DNA of 64,000 nt from Actinobacteria bacterium HGW-Actinobacteria-2 (lineage in GTDB: Bacteria; Actinomycetota; Actinomycetes; Propionibacteriales; Propionibacteriaceae). The notes below the pieces were generated by a model. That model searched no databases. It worked only from the letters and a program-made list of their open reading frames with translations, and was not told the origin of the DNA. Every line of letters begins with the position of its first letter. The stretch's first letter is position 1. Positions 6-6,807 of the stretch are shown here, piece by piece. The stretch covers positions 62,001 to 126,000 of the forward strand of contig PHEY01000009.1 of NCBI GenBank assembly GCA_002841335.1, given 5' to 3'. A program made the translations under genes and the position numbers.

Positions 6-1502
<1,497 letters not shown>

Positions 1503-1612
1503 TCAAGGGGAAAGTCCAAAAGTCACCCGAATGGGTACTCGCACTTGTCACCCGCAGATTGATAGCTTCCGACGCGGTGTACTTACCGTTCGATCCCGGG
1601 GGGGATTTTTTC

Positions 1613-2266
1613 ATGTCCAAAACCACTGCGCCTCGCCGCGCCCAACGACGTATCGCTGTCCCGGTCATCGTGGCCGGTGGCCTGAGCTCGCTGCTCCTGG
1701 CCTTCAGCCTGACTCCGACCTTCTCGGCGCTCACCGCCGCGATCACCAACAACGCCAACACCGCCGGCACCGGCACCCTGGTCATGGAGGAGACCGGCCC
1801 GAATGGCACCGGCGTCGCCACCACCTGCACCAGCGGCGCTACGGGCTCGGCCACCTGCACCGACATCAACAAGTACGGGGGCTCCAACCCGTCCACGTCG
1901 GGCTACCTGAAGATGAAGCCGGGCGACGCCCAGACCACGACCGTCACGATCAAGAACTCCGGCAGCCTCAATGCCTCGACCTTCACCGTGAAGGGCGGCA
2001 CCTGCACTGACGCCACCCAGGGCTCGGTGTCCGGCTCGGCCACCAACCTGTGCGACCTGTACACGATCGACATCAAGCAAGGCGCCACGTCGATCTACAG
2101 CGGCACGGCGACCGCGTTCGCTACTGCGGCGGCGTCCAGCATCGGCGCCGTCACCGCCGGCTCGTCGGTCACCCTGACGATCACTGCCACCCTGAACGCC
2201 TCGGCTACCGCGGCCAACCAGGGGCACACGATCACCCAGCCGATCACCTGGACGTTCAACGCCTGA
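1613..2266 (+). CDS. TasA-like secreted protein with SipW-type signal peptide
   Basis: A 217-residue exported protein. The start at ATG 1613 is chosen over an upstream ATG because a G-rich Shine-Dalgarno run (about 1598-1605) precedes it. Residues 14-33 are hydrophobic, followed by LAFSLTPTF at 29-37 and a predicted cleavage region at FSALTA, then NTAGTGTL; this resembles SipW-processed TasA/camelysin precursors. The mature part carries KPGD followed by NSGSL, a pattern seen in TasA (KPGD...NNGSL). Four cysteines may form two disulfides, and the chain ends ITWTFNA. A paralogue at 4228-4875 shares the signal segment, the cysteine pattern and the C-terminus. The peptidase gene follows after 119 bases. 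Role inferred: a fibre or matrix subunit at the cell surface. Confidence 0.8.
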   Translation: MSKTTAPRRAQRRIAVPVIVAGGLSSLLLAFSLTPTFSALTAAITNNANTAGTGTLVMEETGPNGTGVATTCTSGATGSATCTDINKYGGSNPSTSGYLKMKPGDAQTTTVTIKNSGSLNASTFTVKGGTCTDATQGSVSGSATNLCDLYTIDIKQGATSIYSGTATAFATAAASSIGAVTAGSSVTLTITATLNASATAANQGHTITQPITWTFNA

Positions 2267-2281
2267 TCCCGGCACCAGATC

Positions 2282-2313
2282 AGCCCTTCCGGCCACTCAG
2301 CGCCGGAAGGGCT
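2282..2313 (+). terminator. strong hairpin between the first substrate gene and sipW-lamG
   Basis: A perfect 12-bp stem, AGCCCTTCCGGC (2282-2293) with GCCGGAAGGGCT (2302-2313), and an 8-nt loop. It lacks a clean T tract. It could act as a partial terminator or 3' stabiliser, giving more of the structural protein than of the downstream peptidase. Confidence 0.55.
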
Positions 2314-2385
2314 GGTTCGGTTCGGCTATCCATCCCTCATTGCGAAGTATCTCGCCACTTCGCTGATGACTGAGTAGGTAGACCA

Positions 2386-4089
2386 ATGACCAGACGCGTC
2401 GTTCTGTGGGCAGCCACCACCGCGATCCTCATCGCGGTGCTCATGGGTGCGCTCTCCGGCATCGGCCTCCGCTTCTTCACCGTGTCCTCGCCGTCGATGG
2501 GGATGGTGGCTCCGGTCGGCACCCTGGTCGTAGCCAAATCCGCGACCTCCTATGGGCTCGGTGACATCGTGACCTACGAGCGCGGGGGCCGTTCCTACAC
2601 CCACCGCATCGTGGCGACCAATCCCGATGGGAGCTTCGTCACCAAGGGCGATCTCAACTCCGCCGCCGACGCCCTGCCCGTCACTCCCGAACTGATCGTC
2701 GGCCGGGCCGTGTGGATCGCGCCGGGACTCGGCTGGCTCTTCCAAGCGCTCCCGTGGCTCGCGATCGGCGCGATGGTGGTGTACCTGTTCTCGCTGTGGC
2801 ACCGTTTCGACCACAGCTGGCAATGGGTCGTCCGAATCAGCGGATGGAGCCTCGTGATCACGGCGGTCGCCGTGTGGCTACGCCCCTGGGTGAATCTGGT
2901 CATGCTCGCCTCCGTCAACTCCGGCCTGTTCCCCTTGGACGTGCTCGGCACCCGGTTGGTGAGCGGCCAGGACACCGTCGCCCATGTGACCTACCAGGAT
3001 GCCCGTGGCTACTACAGCCTCACTCCCACTTTGGCGCTGTACTGGTGGCAGCAGTTGTGGCTATATGTGTTGTGCTTGGTGCCGACGGGATTGGCGTTCC
3101 TGATCCGCCAGCCCGACACCGCACCTCCGGCCCGAGCGATCGAGTCCGAAGATGCACCTGCGGTCCCCGAGTTCGCACCGCTCACCGAGAGCGAGCAGAC
3201 GGCGCTGCGTCGGCGACGGGTACTCACGCTCGCCAGTATCGTCCTCGCCGTCCTGCTGAGCGTCGCGCTGACGGTGATCGGGGTCACCAGCGGCGCCCTC
3301 ACCGCCAAAGTCAACAACAACTCGAACACGGCGGGCACTCGCACCTACTTCACCTGCAAGAGCGCGATGAGCAGCACAGCCGTCCCGCGTCCGTACCTTG
3401 CCTGGGCCATGGGCACCACAGCCAACAACCAGACCGACCTGTCGGGAAACGGCCGAACCGGTCGTTTCAGCACCGCGGCCACCACCAGCACCAGCATCGG
3501 CTGCCTGCGAGACACCCCGACGGCGTCGGTGACCTTTGCGGGCAACAAGTGCCTCTACATCAACGCCAACTATGCCGCCAGCACCCCCAACACCTTCTCC
3601 ATCGAGGCTTGGTTCCGCACGTCCAGGACGAGCAACGGCAACATCATCGTGTTTGGCGATCGCACCGGTACAGCCGACTCCAACCATGACCGCAAGATCT
3701 ACCTCGACCGAGACGGCCGCGTGGTCTTCGGCGTGTACCCCGACGCGGTCAAGATCGTCTACACCGCAGCCGGCAAGAACTACGCCGACAACACCTGGCA
3801 CCACGTCGTGGCGACGCTGTCGTCCGCCGGCCAGTCGCTCTACGTCGATGGAGCCCTCGCCATGACCAACTCCGGCGTGACGACGGCCCAGAACTTCGCC
3901 GGCTATTGGAAGGTGGGTTGCGGTGCCCTGGGTGGCTGGCGCAACGCAGCTACCGACGAATCGGGTAGCACCAACAACGACTACTCCGGGCCGGTGTACT
4001 TCACCGGCCAGCTTCAGTACGCCGCCGTCTACACCGCTGCCCTCACCGCAGCGCAGGTCGAAGAGCACTACCTGGCCGGAGTCGACTGA
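2386..4089 (+). CDS. SipW-type signal peptidase fused to a LamG domain
   Basis: A 567-residue membrane protein. Residues 5-28 form a first membrane helix, followed by SSPSMG with the likely catalytic Ser37, THRIV with His73, and KGDLN with Asp89. This is the Ser-His-Asp arrangement of the SipW/ER-type family rather than the Ser-Lys dyad of ordinary LepB. Further helices lie near 115-135, 148-165 and 222-240. Near residues 280-302 there is another hydrophobic stretch, then SGALTA and NTAGTRT, which parallels the processing region of the upstream secreted protein (FSALTA, NTAGTGT). A LamG/concanavalin-like domain follows (about 335-567) with FSIEAWFRT, WHHVVATLS and a C-terminal QVEEHYLAG, plus four cysteines. 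Ordinary SipW proteins are about 190 residues. The fusion suggests that the LamG part is itself a substrate, possibly self-released. Confidence 0.82.
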   Translation: MTRRVVLWAATTAILIAVLMGALSGIGLRFFTVSSPSMGMVAPVGTLVVAKSATSYGLGDIVTYERGGRSYTHRIVATNPDGSFVTKGDLNSAADALPVTPELIVGRAVWIAPGLGWLFQALPWLAIGAMVVYLFSLWHRFDHSWQWVVRISGWSLVITAVAVWLRPWVNLVMLASVNSGLFPLDVLGTRLVSGQDTVAHVTYQDARGYYSLTPTLALYWWQQLWLYVLCLVPTGLAFLIRQPDTAPPARAIESEDAPAVPEFAPLTESEQTALRRRRVLTLASIVLAVLLSVALTVIGVTSGALTAKVNNNSNTAGTRTYFTCKSAMSSTAVPRPYLAWAMGTTANNQTDLSGNGRTGRFSTAATTSTSIGCLRDTPTASVTFAGNKCLYINANYAASTPNTFSIEAWFRTSRTSNGNIIVFGDRTGTADSNHDRKIYLDRDGRVVFGVYPDAVKIVYTAAGKNYADNTWHHVVATLSSAGQSLYVDGALAMTNSGVTTAQNFAGYWKVGCGALGGWRNAATDESGSTNNDYSGPVYFTGQLQYAAVYTAALTAAQVEEHYLAGVD

Positions 4090-4132
4090 GCGGGAATCCG
4101 CTCATCTGCGAGCGCAGCGGCTCACCCGGGAA

Positions 4133-4145
4133 TAGCCTGATGGTG
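4133..4145 (+). promoter_or_regulatory. candidate internal promoter for the second substrate gene
   Basis: TAGCCT at 4133-4138 has the spacing and form of the -10 boxes used elsewhere in this window. It would start a transcript about 83 bases before the ATG at 4228, giving that gene expression independent of the upstream hairpin. No convincing -35 was seen. Confidence 0.35.
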
Positions 4146-4227
4146 TGCCGCCGCCACGGCGTAAGAAACACAAAGTAGTACGTCCTGACGACGGTCCGAC
4201 CCACCTACCCCGGGGGAAGGCACCGAG

Positions 4228-4875
4228 ATGTCTGGTCTCAATGGCACTCACCGCGGCTACCGCCATGTCGCCGCCGGCCCGATCGTGGCCGCTGCCGTTG
4301 GCTCCATCGTGCTCGCCTTCAGCCTGACCCCCACCTTCGCCGCAGCCAGCGGTTACGTGCAGCAGCTCGTCCCCGCGACCAGCGCCGCGGTCAACATCCA
4401 AGAAGCCGCCGCCGATGGCTCCGCGGCCTGCTCCAGCTCCACCCTGGCCAGCGATACGGGCGGCGCGTCCTGCAGCGGCATCGATCTGTACGGTGGCAAG
4501 AACCTTCAGCCGGGCAAGGCGTCGCGTACCACCGTGGTCTTCACCAACAGCGGCACCGGACACGCCCATTCCTTCACCGCCGCCGGTGGCCAGTGCACGC
4601 AGAGCGCCACGGGCGCGAACAGCGGCTCGGCGACCGATCTGTGCGACAAGTTCCACCTGCTCATCTCCGCCGAAGGCGCCACCGTGTTCGACGGAACGGC
4701 AGCCGAGTTCGGTCGGATCGGCGCGCTTCCGGTGGTGGACGGTGCGGCCAACATGACCATTCCCGCCGGCGGGTCGGTGACGGTGACGGTGACGGTCACC
4801 TTGTCGTCCGATATCGACAACAGTCATGCGGGCCTGCAGATCGGTCAGCCGATCACCTGGACCTTCCAGAACTGA
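4228..4875 (+). CDS. second TasA-like secreted protein (paralogue)
   Basis: A 215-residue exported protein, paralogous to 1613-2266. Residues 14-33 are hydrophobic and residues 29-37 read LAFSLTPTF, identical in sequence and position to the paralogue; the predicted cleavage region is FAAAS. The mature part has PGK followed by FTNSGTG (the TasA-like PGD/NSG region), four cysteines in the same arrangement, GSATDLCDKF (GSATNLCDLY in the paralogue) and the ending QPITWTFQN (QPITWTFNA). The ATG at 4228 has a GGGGGAAGG ribosome-binding site. It lies 138 bases after the SipW-LamG gene and probably belongs to the same functional cluster. Role inferred: a minor or alternative surface subunit exported by Sec and trimmed by the SipW-type peptidase. 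Confidence 0.78.
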   Translation: MSGLNGTHRGYRHVAAGPIVAAAVGSIVLAFSLTPTFAAASGYVQQLVPATSAAVNIQEAAADGSAACSSSTLASDTGGASCSGIDLYGGKNLQPGKASRTTVVFTNSGTGHAHSFTAAGGQCTQSATGANSGSATDLCDKFHLLISAEGATVFDGTAAEFGRIGALPVVDGAANMTIPAGGSVTVTVTVTLSSDIDNSHAGLQIGQPITWTFQN

Positions 4876-4889
4876 CCTCAGCCACGACC

Positions 4890-4931
4890 AAGGGCCAGCC
4901 TTCGCGCCGATTGACGCGGAGGCTGGCCCTT
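4890..4931. terminator. bidirectional terminator between the surface cluster and leuA
   Basis: Arms AAGGGCCAGCCT (4890-4901) and AGGCTGGCCCTT (4920-4931) pair over 12 bp, with CGCG/CGCG extending the stem inward. It lies between two convergent genes and should stop both. Confidence 0.7.
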
Positions 4932-4947
4932 GATGTGGAACGAATCG

Positions 4948-6807
<1,860 letters not shown>

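Follow-up and report, generated by a model that had tools for sequence, protein, structure and literature searches.

SipW-type signal peptidase and LamG module in one chain beside TasA-like genes in actinobacteria: a proposed self-processing membrane polyprotein

In this study we analysed a stretch of 64,000 nucleotides from Actinobacteria bacterium HGW-Actinobacteria-2 (contig PHEY01000009.1, positions 62,001 to 126,000; hereafter the window, with positions counted from its first letter), in which three genes, A, B and C, follow one another on the + strand. Gene B (2386-4089, 567 amino acids (aa)) joins a SipW-type signal peptidase and a LamG module in a single open reading frame (ORF) without an internal stop, and genes A (1613-2266, 217 aa) and C (4228-4875, 215 aa), on either side of it, encode TasA-like proteins. 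We propose, with a probability of roughly 0.6, that the SipW part frees its own LamG module, in cis or in trans, and that the freed module joins a fibre of TasA-like subunits. The fusion, its conservation, the gene order, the site motif with its co-variation between fusion and partner, and the overlap of the two genes in loci where peptidase and LamG are split were all read directly from the sequences.

An earlier, sequence-only reading of this DNA had placed the three ORFs, the catalytic residues Ser37/His73/Asp89 and the LamG domain, and all of these were confirmed. The catalytic part of gene B (residues 6-132; 2401-2781, + strand) matched TIGR02228 with an E-value of 1.9e-12 and 47.3 bits, just below the cut-off of 51.85, and NF046067 (SipW) with an E-value of 1.4e-6 and 28 bits, far below the cut-off of 190; both models were matched at E<=0.01 by all nine fusions of our alignment A2. 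Gene B has the SipW/endoplasmic reticulum (ER)-type signature of a catalytic Ser and His (not Lys), plus Asp, and in the 47 fused ORFs compared here these columns hold Ser in 46 (one Thr), His in 47 and Asp in 47. Further hydrophobic helices sit between the peptidase and LamG, together with an extra extracytoplasmic segment between the third and fourth transmembrane segments (TM3-TM4, approximately residues 175-215; 2908-3030, + strand), by which we distinguish a 'long' from a 'short' type. According to A2 this insert is present in six long types and missing from three short types, and the separate SipW of loci L033 and L026 have it as well. Gene B of the window, at about 2911-2920 (around residues 176-177), has 11-14 ectodomain residues fewer than the five other long types of A2; at L026, the ORF 1444-2445 encodes a SipW of the long type, TM3-TM4 ectodomain included, and contains no LamG within its own frame. 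At the other end of the chain, residues 392-558 of gene B matched Pfam PF13385 (Laminin_G_3) with an E-value of 1.1e-16 and 61.7 bits, in comparison to a gathering score of 27.6. The NCBIfam model TafC (NF052521, 'fimbrial protein') reached only 21.1 bits on the LamG part of gene B, versus a cut-off of 410, and matched six of the nine A2 fusions at E<=0.01 (best 1.4e-9); a search for TafC together with fimbri- found no paper, and TafC was not used as a family label.

The last hydrophobic segment of gene B (3205-3297, + strand) looks like a SipW-dependent signal peptide placed inside the chain, as it has a positive N-region (RRRR), a hydrophobic core (approximately residues 282-298), permitted residues at -3 and -1 of the candidate site TSG303/A304LTA, and a partner-like mature N-terminus. 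A hidden Markov model (HMM) was built from the signals of 75 TasA-like proteins, with the fusions excluded. This partner HMM matched the C-terminal part of 23 of the 87 SipW ORFs at an independent E-value (iE) below 1e-3, all 23 being fusions, whereas the N-terminal and the reversed controls gave 0/88 and 0/87 matches at the same threshold; the internal signal of gene B was matched with an iE of 4.1e-4. The TIGR04088 model of the SipW-dependent signal matched none of the three proteins at E<=1.

The earlier reading had also pointed out that SGALTA...NTAGTRT of gene B mirrors FSALTA...NTAGTGT of its neighbour, and this likeness proved real: ALTAKVNNNSNTAGTRTY of gene B and ALTAAITNNANTAGTGTL of gene A are identical at 12 of 18 positions, and over 39 pairs of fusion and partner the resemblance goes beyond chance. 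The same-locus similarity, calculated as a BLOSUM62 sum over the first 18 residues past the site, was 35.3 versus 21.5 across loci. None of 20,000 global permutations reached the same-locus value, and two of 20,000 did so when permuted within classes; pairs that come from tandem copies or from related species are not independent of each other. These pairs represent 39 of the 47 fusions; for the remaining eight, the non-redundant set of partners contained no upstream protein. A short-type example is provided by L113 (GFTGHTRNSGWTWATGAW versus AFTGQTRNSGNEWATGSV), and the weak pairs belong mostly to one class, 'g260' (similarity of 15.8 within this class versus 14.2 to other classes).

According to PMC9674648 and PMC10151520, the TasA subunits of B. 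subtilis polymerise by donating an N-terminal strand (residues 28-38) to the next subunit, with contacts made by F29, I32 and F39. Counted from the site, the Phe39 contact lies in the zone P11'-P14'. The motif positions match these three TasA residues to within one residue, and the predicted mature LamG protein (264 aa, 28.0 kDa; 3295-4086, + strand, with an inferred start) opens with the donor-strand-like segment ALTAKVNNNSNTAGTRT, here placed on a jelly-roll from a different family. Alternatively, LamG could be freed by SipW and yet be merely a secreted lectin or adhesin that does not enter a TasA-like fibre, in which case the motif would reflect only the recognition needs of SipW. This would agree with the variety of the cargo found behind SipW (RCC1, WD40, glycine-rich) and with its departure from the TasA-like pattern with distance from the site, as G at P16' occurs in 13/47 fusions versus 65/75 TasA-like proteins. 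Nevertheless, the same-locus similarity spans 18 residues past the site, an aromatic residue at P11'-P14' is about as common in the fusions (26/47) as in the TasA-like proteins (42/75), and a same-strand TasA-like ORF lies upstream in 36 of 36 LamG-fusion loci. We therefore consider plain secretion rather unlikely.

At the candidate site, all 47 fusions carry A, T, S or V at -3 and A, S or G at -1. The strict form of the site motif was found in 35/47 fusions, in comparison to 1/47 for the first transmembrane segment (TM1), 11/47 for the second (TM2), 27/521 for other ORFs and 13.9% for shuffled flanks. K/R residues before the hydrophobic segment outnumber those after it in 45 of the 47 fusions and are equal in two, and since the excess precedes the segment, this suggests that the LamG of the fusions lies outside. 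In eight split loci (L105-L111 and L083) a separate LamG gene follows SipW, with the hydrophobic segment and the motif at the N-terminus of LamG, and all eight have a candidate LamG start codon that, in a different frame, shares the sequence RTGA with the stop codon of SipW; a TasA-like ORF lies upstream in seven of them, with none detected at L110. At L033, an Acidimicrobiales metagenome-assembled genome (MAG), and L064, a separate LamG gene stands before, not after, a long-type SipW, and the two LamG proteins have two and three LamG matches, respectively.

These results bear on a second alternative, in which the last hydrophobic segment would be a permanent anchor and LamG would be held at the surface on SipW, as a fibre base or a docking lectin, with the donor-strand-like segment offered from the membrane. 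LamG indeed has no wall anchor of its own, as no LPXTG-type tail was found behind it in the gene B sequence and the chain stops nine residues past the Pfam match; moreover, P1 of the window site is Gly, the rarest residue at this position, and SipW-like proteins with an apparently membrane-held DUF5305-like ectodomain do exist (L078-L081 and L139). However, a plain anchor needs neither the -3/-1 residues kept in all 47 diverged fusions nor the aromatic P2' residue present in 39 of them, TM1 of the same proteins, in the same orientation, is without the strict motif in 46/47 cases, and in the split loci a free LamG protein starts with that very signal. Permanent anchoring thus seems quite unlikely.

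The internal site could also be cut by a housekeeping signal peptidase, so that the fusion to SipW would mean mere co-expression. An AxA-type site suits any type I signal peptidase, and P2' in the window is Leu, which is not aromatic. On the other hand, P2' is aromatic in 39/47 fusions and in 66/75 TasA-like proteins. In PMC10269814, an aromatic P2' is described as hindering the ordinary signal peptidase of E. coli (LepB), and the TasA site TWA-AFND as processed by SipW; the aromatic P2' of the fusions therefore disfavours an ordinary signal peptidase, although the enzyme of the organisms studied here is not LepB itself. As the motif also tracks the partner locus by locus, we regard cleavage by the housekeeping enzyme as very unlikely. 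Finally, an assembly artefact or an isolated gene join is for practical purposes ruled out, because at least 39 SipW-LamG fusions were found in 36 genomes, 11 genomes of the family having the long type end to end.

The presence of the fusion in relatives, which the sequence-only reading had left to be checked, was examined with fusion queries (gene B of the window and the A2 profile); the large searches scored 3-6 candidates per genome and only part of the listed matches were fetched, so the fusion counts are not frequencies. End-to-end matches of the long type were obtained in 11 of 198 genomes of the family, the genome of the window included, and in the ten others the profile match starts at 2-9 and ends at 567-568 of 569. 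The short type, without the TM3-TM4 insert, was found in ten more of the 198 genomes, whose loci were fetched, and to complete the 36 genomes, the phylum sample contributed two, the order search 12, and one further genome had the short type. Among the named relatives found, the nearest is L032 (which duplicates L084), a Propionibacteriales MAG with a gene B that is 85% identical. The same reading had pictured such fusions beside paired TasA-like genes: the upstream gene is indeed constant, but TasA-like genes on both sides, on the same strand, were found in only 9 of the 36 LamG-fusion loci (some loci stop at contig ends). In a single related genus (L088, L089 and L090), tandem pairs of SipW-LamG fusions stand behind at least one TasA-like gene.

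The fusions fall into two SipW clades. A tree built from 87 SipW domains gave a Shimodaira-Hasegawa-like approximate likelihood ratio test (SH-aLRT) support of 99 for the long-type group (14 fused and nine split) and of 98 for the short-type group (25 LamG fusions, eight with other cargo and two unfused); at least five changes between the fused and unfused state are needed on this tree, which is a quick tree of a set collected with fusion queries. The eight SipW ORFs with non-LamG cargo are L065 (RCC1 repeats, E 1.4e-62), L074 (glycine-rich domain, E 2.5e-20), L077 (WD40 repeats with fn3), and L068, L069, L073, L076 and L142, whose modules are unassigned. The partner HMM matched five of the eight at iE<1e-3 (L065, L069, L074, L077 and L142); L076 gave an iE of 0.19 and L068 and L073 had no listed match, and in these three the signal rests on a hand-placed motif. 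Outside the 47 fused ORFs stand L128, with possible further cargo (iE 0.15), and five SipW-like ORFs with a DUF5305-like ectodomain (L078-L081 and L139), which are a different class of peptidase-ectodomain fusion; the DUF5305 assignment comes from Pfam for L079 (E 9e-16) and was made by eye for the four others. In an even phylum sample of 396 genomes we counted, by hand, at least about 127 SipW rows, 39 of them with an open frame of at least 300 aa (window included). Cargo behind a SipW-type internal signal was seen in 11 of the approximately 127 rows (window included; three with LamG), or in 12 with L128, as counted by reading the 38 other fetched loci.

The AlphaFold2 (AF2) model of gene A was of moderate quality, with a predicted local distance difference test (pLDDT) score of 65.7 from five sequences. 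Foldseek nevertheless placed the TasA fibre 8aur at rank 1 for it (probability 1.00, E 1.5e-3, template modelling (TM) score 0.45) and the TasA monomers 5of2 and 5of1 at ranks 11 and 20 (probability 1.00 for both). The model thus resembles TasA, with a jelly-roll fold, and gene A, with its candidate SipW site TFS/ALTA, probably encodes the major fibre subunit. Sequence profiles gave weaker signals, which by themselves do not assign gene A to TasA: the best two matches of profile A3 in the PDB were TasA (E 0.7-0.9), and gene A had no NCBIfam match at E<=1, NF046066 included, and reached Peptidase_M73 with E 0.14. In the A4 set, which consists of TasA-like neighbours of SipW, fused and unfused alike, 10 of 29 members matched NF046066 at E<=0.1 (best 7.7e-6), and 3 of 24 A3 members matched Peptidase_M73 (best 0.0016).

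Gene C is 39% identical to gene A in alignment A3, so both flanking proteins are TasA-like, as the sequence-only reading had claimed; gene C, however, is without the motif common to A and B. With a position weight matrix of the donor strand, gene C scored -8.0, whereas 59 upstream TasA-like proteins averaged 29.3; the ungapped scoring is crude for C-type proteins, gene C having a one-residue gap at the scored stretch in A3. The signature is likewise missing from the counterparts of gene C in L032 and L085 and from the downstream gene of L067 (scores from -4.4 to -15.6, gene C included), in comparison to scores of 21 to 35 for the other downstream TasA-like proteins outside L002. Because gene C is without the donor-strand motif, A and C are probably not equivalent, and since it is the mature N-terminus that is without this signature, gene C may end or anchor the fibre, as a candidate terminator or anchor subunit. 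With both-side genes in 9/36 loci and this difference between C and A, the three-gene, two-substrate picture of the earlier reading is not general. The source genome (2.9 Mb) also contains a second, unfused SipW at L002 (contig C6, approximately 144875), and hence at least two SipW enzymes; it is flanked by small exported-looking proteins with LAAWTDTEYATGxFT past a hydrophobic segment.

Two RNA hairpins were predicted on the + strand from folding energy. The first lies directly 3' of the gene A stop, before gene B (2262-2340; -42 kcal/mol, z -6.1, with none of 200 shuffles reaching this stability), and at the same position 8 of the 11 long-type loci have a hairpin with z <= -3.6 (mononucleotide shuffles). 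It was not seen in L086, L087 and L093; some split loci have a similar hairpin, and most short-type loci have none. The second hairpin, 3' of gene C (4870-4945; -46.5 kcal/mol, z -9.1), is the probable end of the unit, which is flanked by argG and leuA on the opposite strand (both named from their translations). Neither hairpin has a T-run. A Sigma-70 promoter scan of 1400-5000 found none, and of the four terminator-like sites in this range, versus 1.4 expected, not one falls on either hairpin.

From these comparisons we infer cleavage, topology, fibre incorporation, tip position and stoichiometry as follows. Gene B would be a self-processing membrane polyprotein, whose last transmembrane segment would serve the LamG module, a secreted protein dependent on SipW, as its signal peptide. 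The chain would insert with LamG outside, and SipW, acting on its own chain or on an adjacent one, would cut after approximately Gly303, releasing a 28-kDa LamG protein; as LamG carries the same kind of trimming signal, it is probably SipW that cuts it free. The SipW left in the membrane would also process the TasA-like subunit encoded by gene A. Because LamG starts with a donor-strand-like segment of the gene A kind, it would most likely donate its first strand to A, and as a donor, not a receiver, it would sit at one fibre end, as initiator and lectin-like tip; this would make it the counterpart of TapA, with a strand given and none received. The fusion, or the stop-start overlap of the split loci, would tie the number of LamG to the number of SipW, and the hairpin after gene A could hold B rare relative to A. 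The idea that the peptidase would free its own LamG goes back to the sequence-only reading, and comparison supports it well, through the split loci, the -3/-1 and mostly aromatic P2' residues, the co-variation and the other cargo.

Several points weigh against this proposal. The AF2 model of gene B (pLDDT 35) was too poor for a fold search. The cleavage sites in the fusions were placed by hand, and 24/47 fusions miss the iE of 1e-3 with the partner HMM. The loose motif was found in 46/47 fusions, but also in 24/47 TM1, 23/47 TM2, 163/521 other ORFs and 59.7% of shuffles, which means that the loose -3/-1 motif discriminates little and is too weak to argue from. The window itself is atypical, as its site is the only one of 47 with Gly at P1 and has the non-aromatic Leu at P2'; P2' of gene A is Leu as well. 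In some same-locus pairs the likeness does not exceed the chance level (e.g. L097, with a score of 3), and the mean donor-strand score of the fused cargo is 12.6 versus 29.3 for the upstream TasA-like proteins. The LamG genes of the split loci have further candidate starts nearby. Finally, the catalytic Ser is replaced by Thr in the WD40-bearing fusion L077 (ORF 1804-4329), due to which this fusion may be inactive or different.

A wider version of our proposal is tentative and somewhat doubtful. It holds that SipW-cargo polyproteins could be a general actinobacterial device in which the peptidase would free a fibre-tip protein from its own chain, with one tip per enzyme and swappable cargo (LamG, RCC1, a WD40 propeller or a glycine-rich domain), and that the window could contain a complete donor-strand pilus set of a Gram-positive lineage, consisting of LamG as the initiator (a strand, no groove), A as the polymer, and C as the terminator (a groove, no proper strand).

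SipW, TasA-type fibres, SipW-dependent signals and LamG are each already known. The earlier reading had not recognised such a three-gene, self-processing surface-fibre system as described. Among the matches listed in open PMC full text, no report of a fusion between a signal peptidase and its own substrate was seen, and a search there for SipW together with LamG found no paper. SipW/TasA-type fibres are known mainly from Bacillus, and the fusions point to a related fibre system in several actinobacterial families, with peptidase and substrate in one molecule. They may serve as a natural substrate map for SipW, since enzyme and site are found in the same chain, and would provide a simple tie between the number of fibre starts and the number of peptidases. 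The swapping of cargo suggests a possible scaffold for the display of chosen modules, and the three-gene locus makes the start and the end of TasA-type fibres testable.

The closest known system is tapA-sipW-tasA of B. subtilis, where a dedicated SipW also stands beside a TasA-fold protein whose signal it removes. According to PMC10269814, the B. subtilis TasA site has small residues at -3 and -1, as here, and an aromatic P2', which most of the fusions share and the window does not. TapA is likewise a minor partner: in the passages of PMC9674648 and PMC10151520, its N-terminus resembles the TasA donor strand and starts the filament, and it is tied to SipW by the overlapping codons of tapA and sipW. 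Unlike in B. subtilis, the proposed minor partner is here LamG, located downstream of SipW in the same chain, behind an internal signal. The B. cereus sipW-calY1-bc_1280-calY2 operon resembles our locus in having two TasA-like genes, those of two camelysins, and one SipW, but there the genes are separate and the operon passage of PMC10151520 names no LamG, whereas gene C of the window is without the donor-strand motif. The signals described by TIGR04088 are also similar, 5 of 29 A4 members matching this model at E<=0.1 (best 1.3e-4). They are known as N-terminal signals, whereas here the same kind of signal is found inside the chain of the peptidase itself. The SipW/DUF5305 proteins combine a peptidase and a large extracytoplasmic module in one chain too, but their junction has no partner-HMM match, their second anchor was assigned by eye, and they occupy a separate part of the tree. 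Viral self-processing polyproteins, as generally known, also contain a protease that frees a fused partner; in the fusions described here, by contrast, a cellular signal peptidase would act as the protease, and the proposed cut would be the cleavage of a signal peptide.

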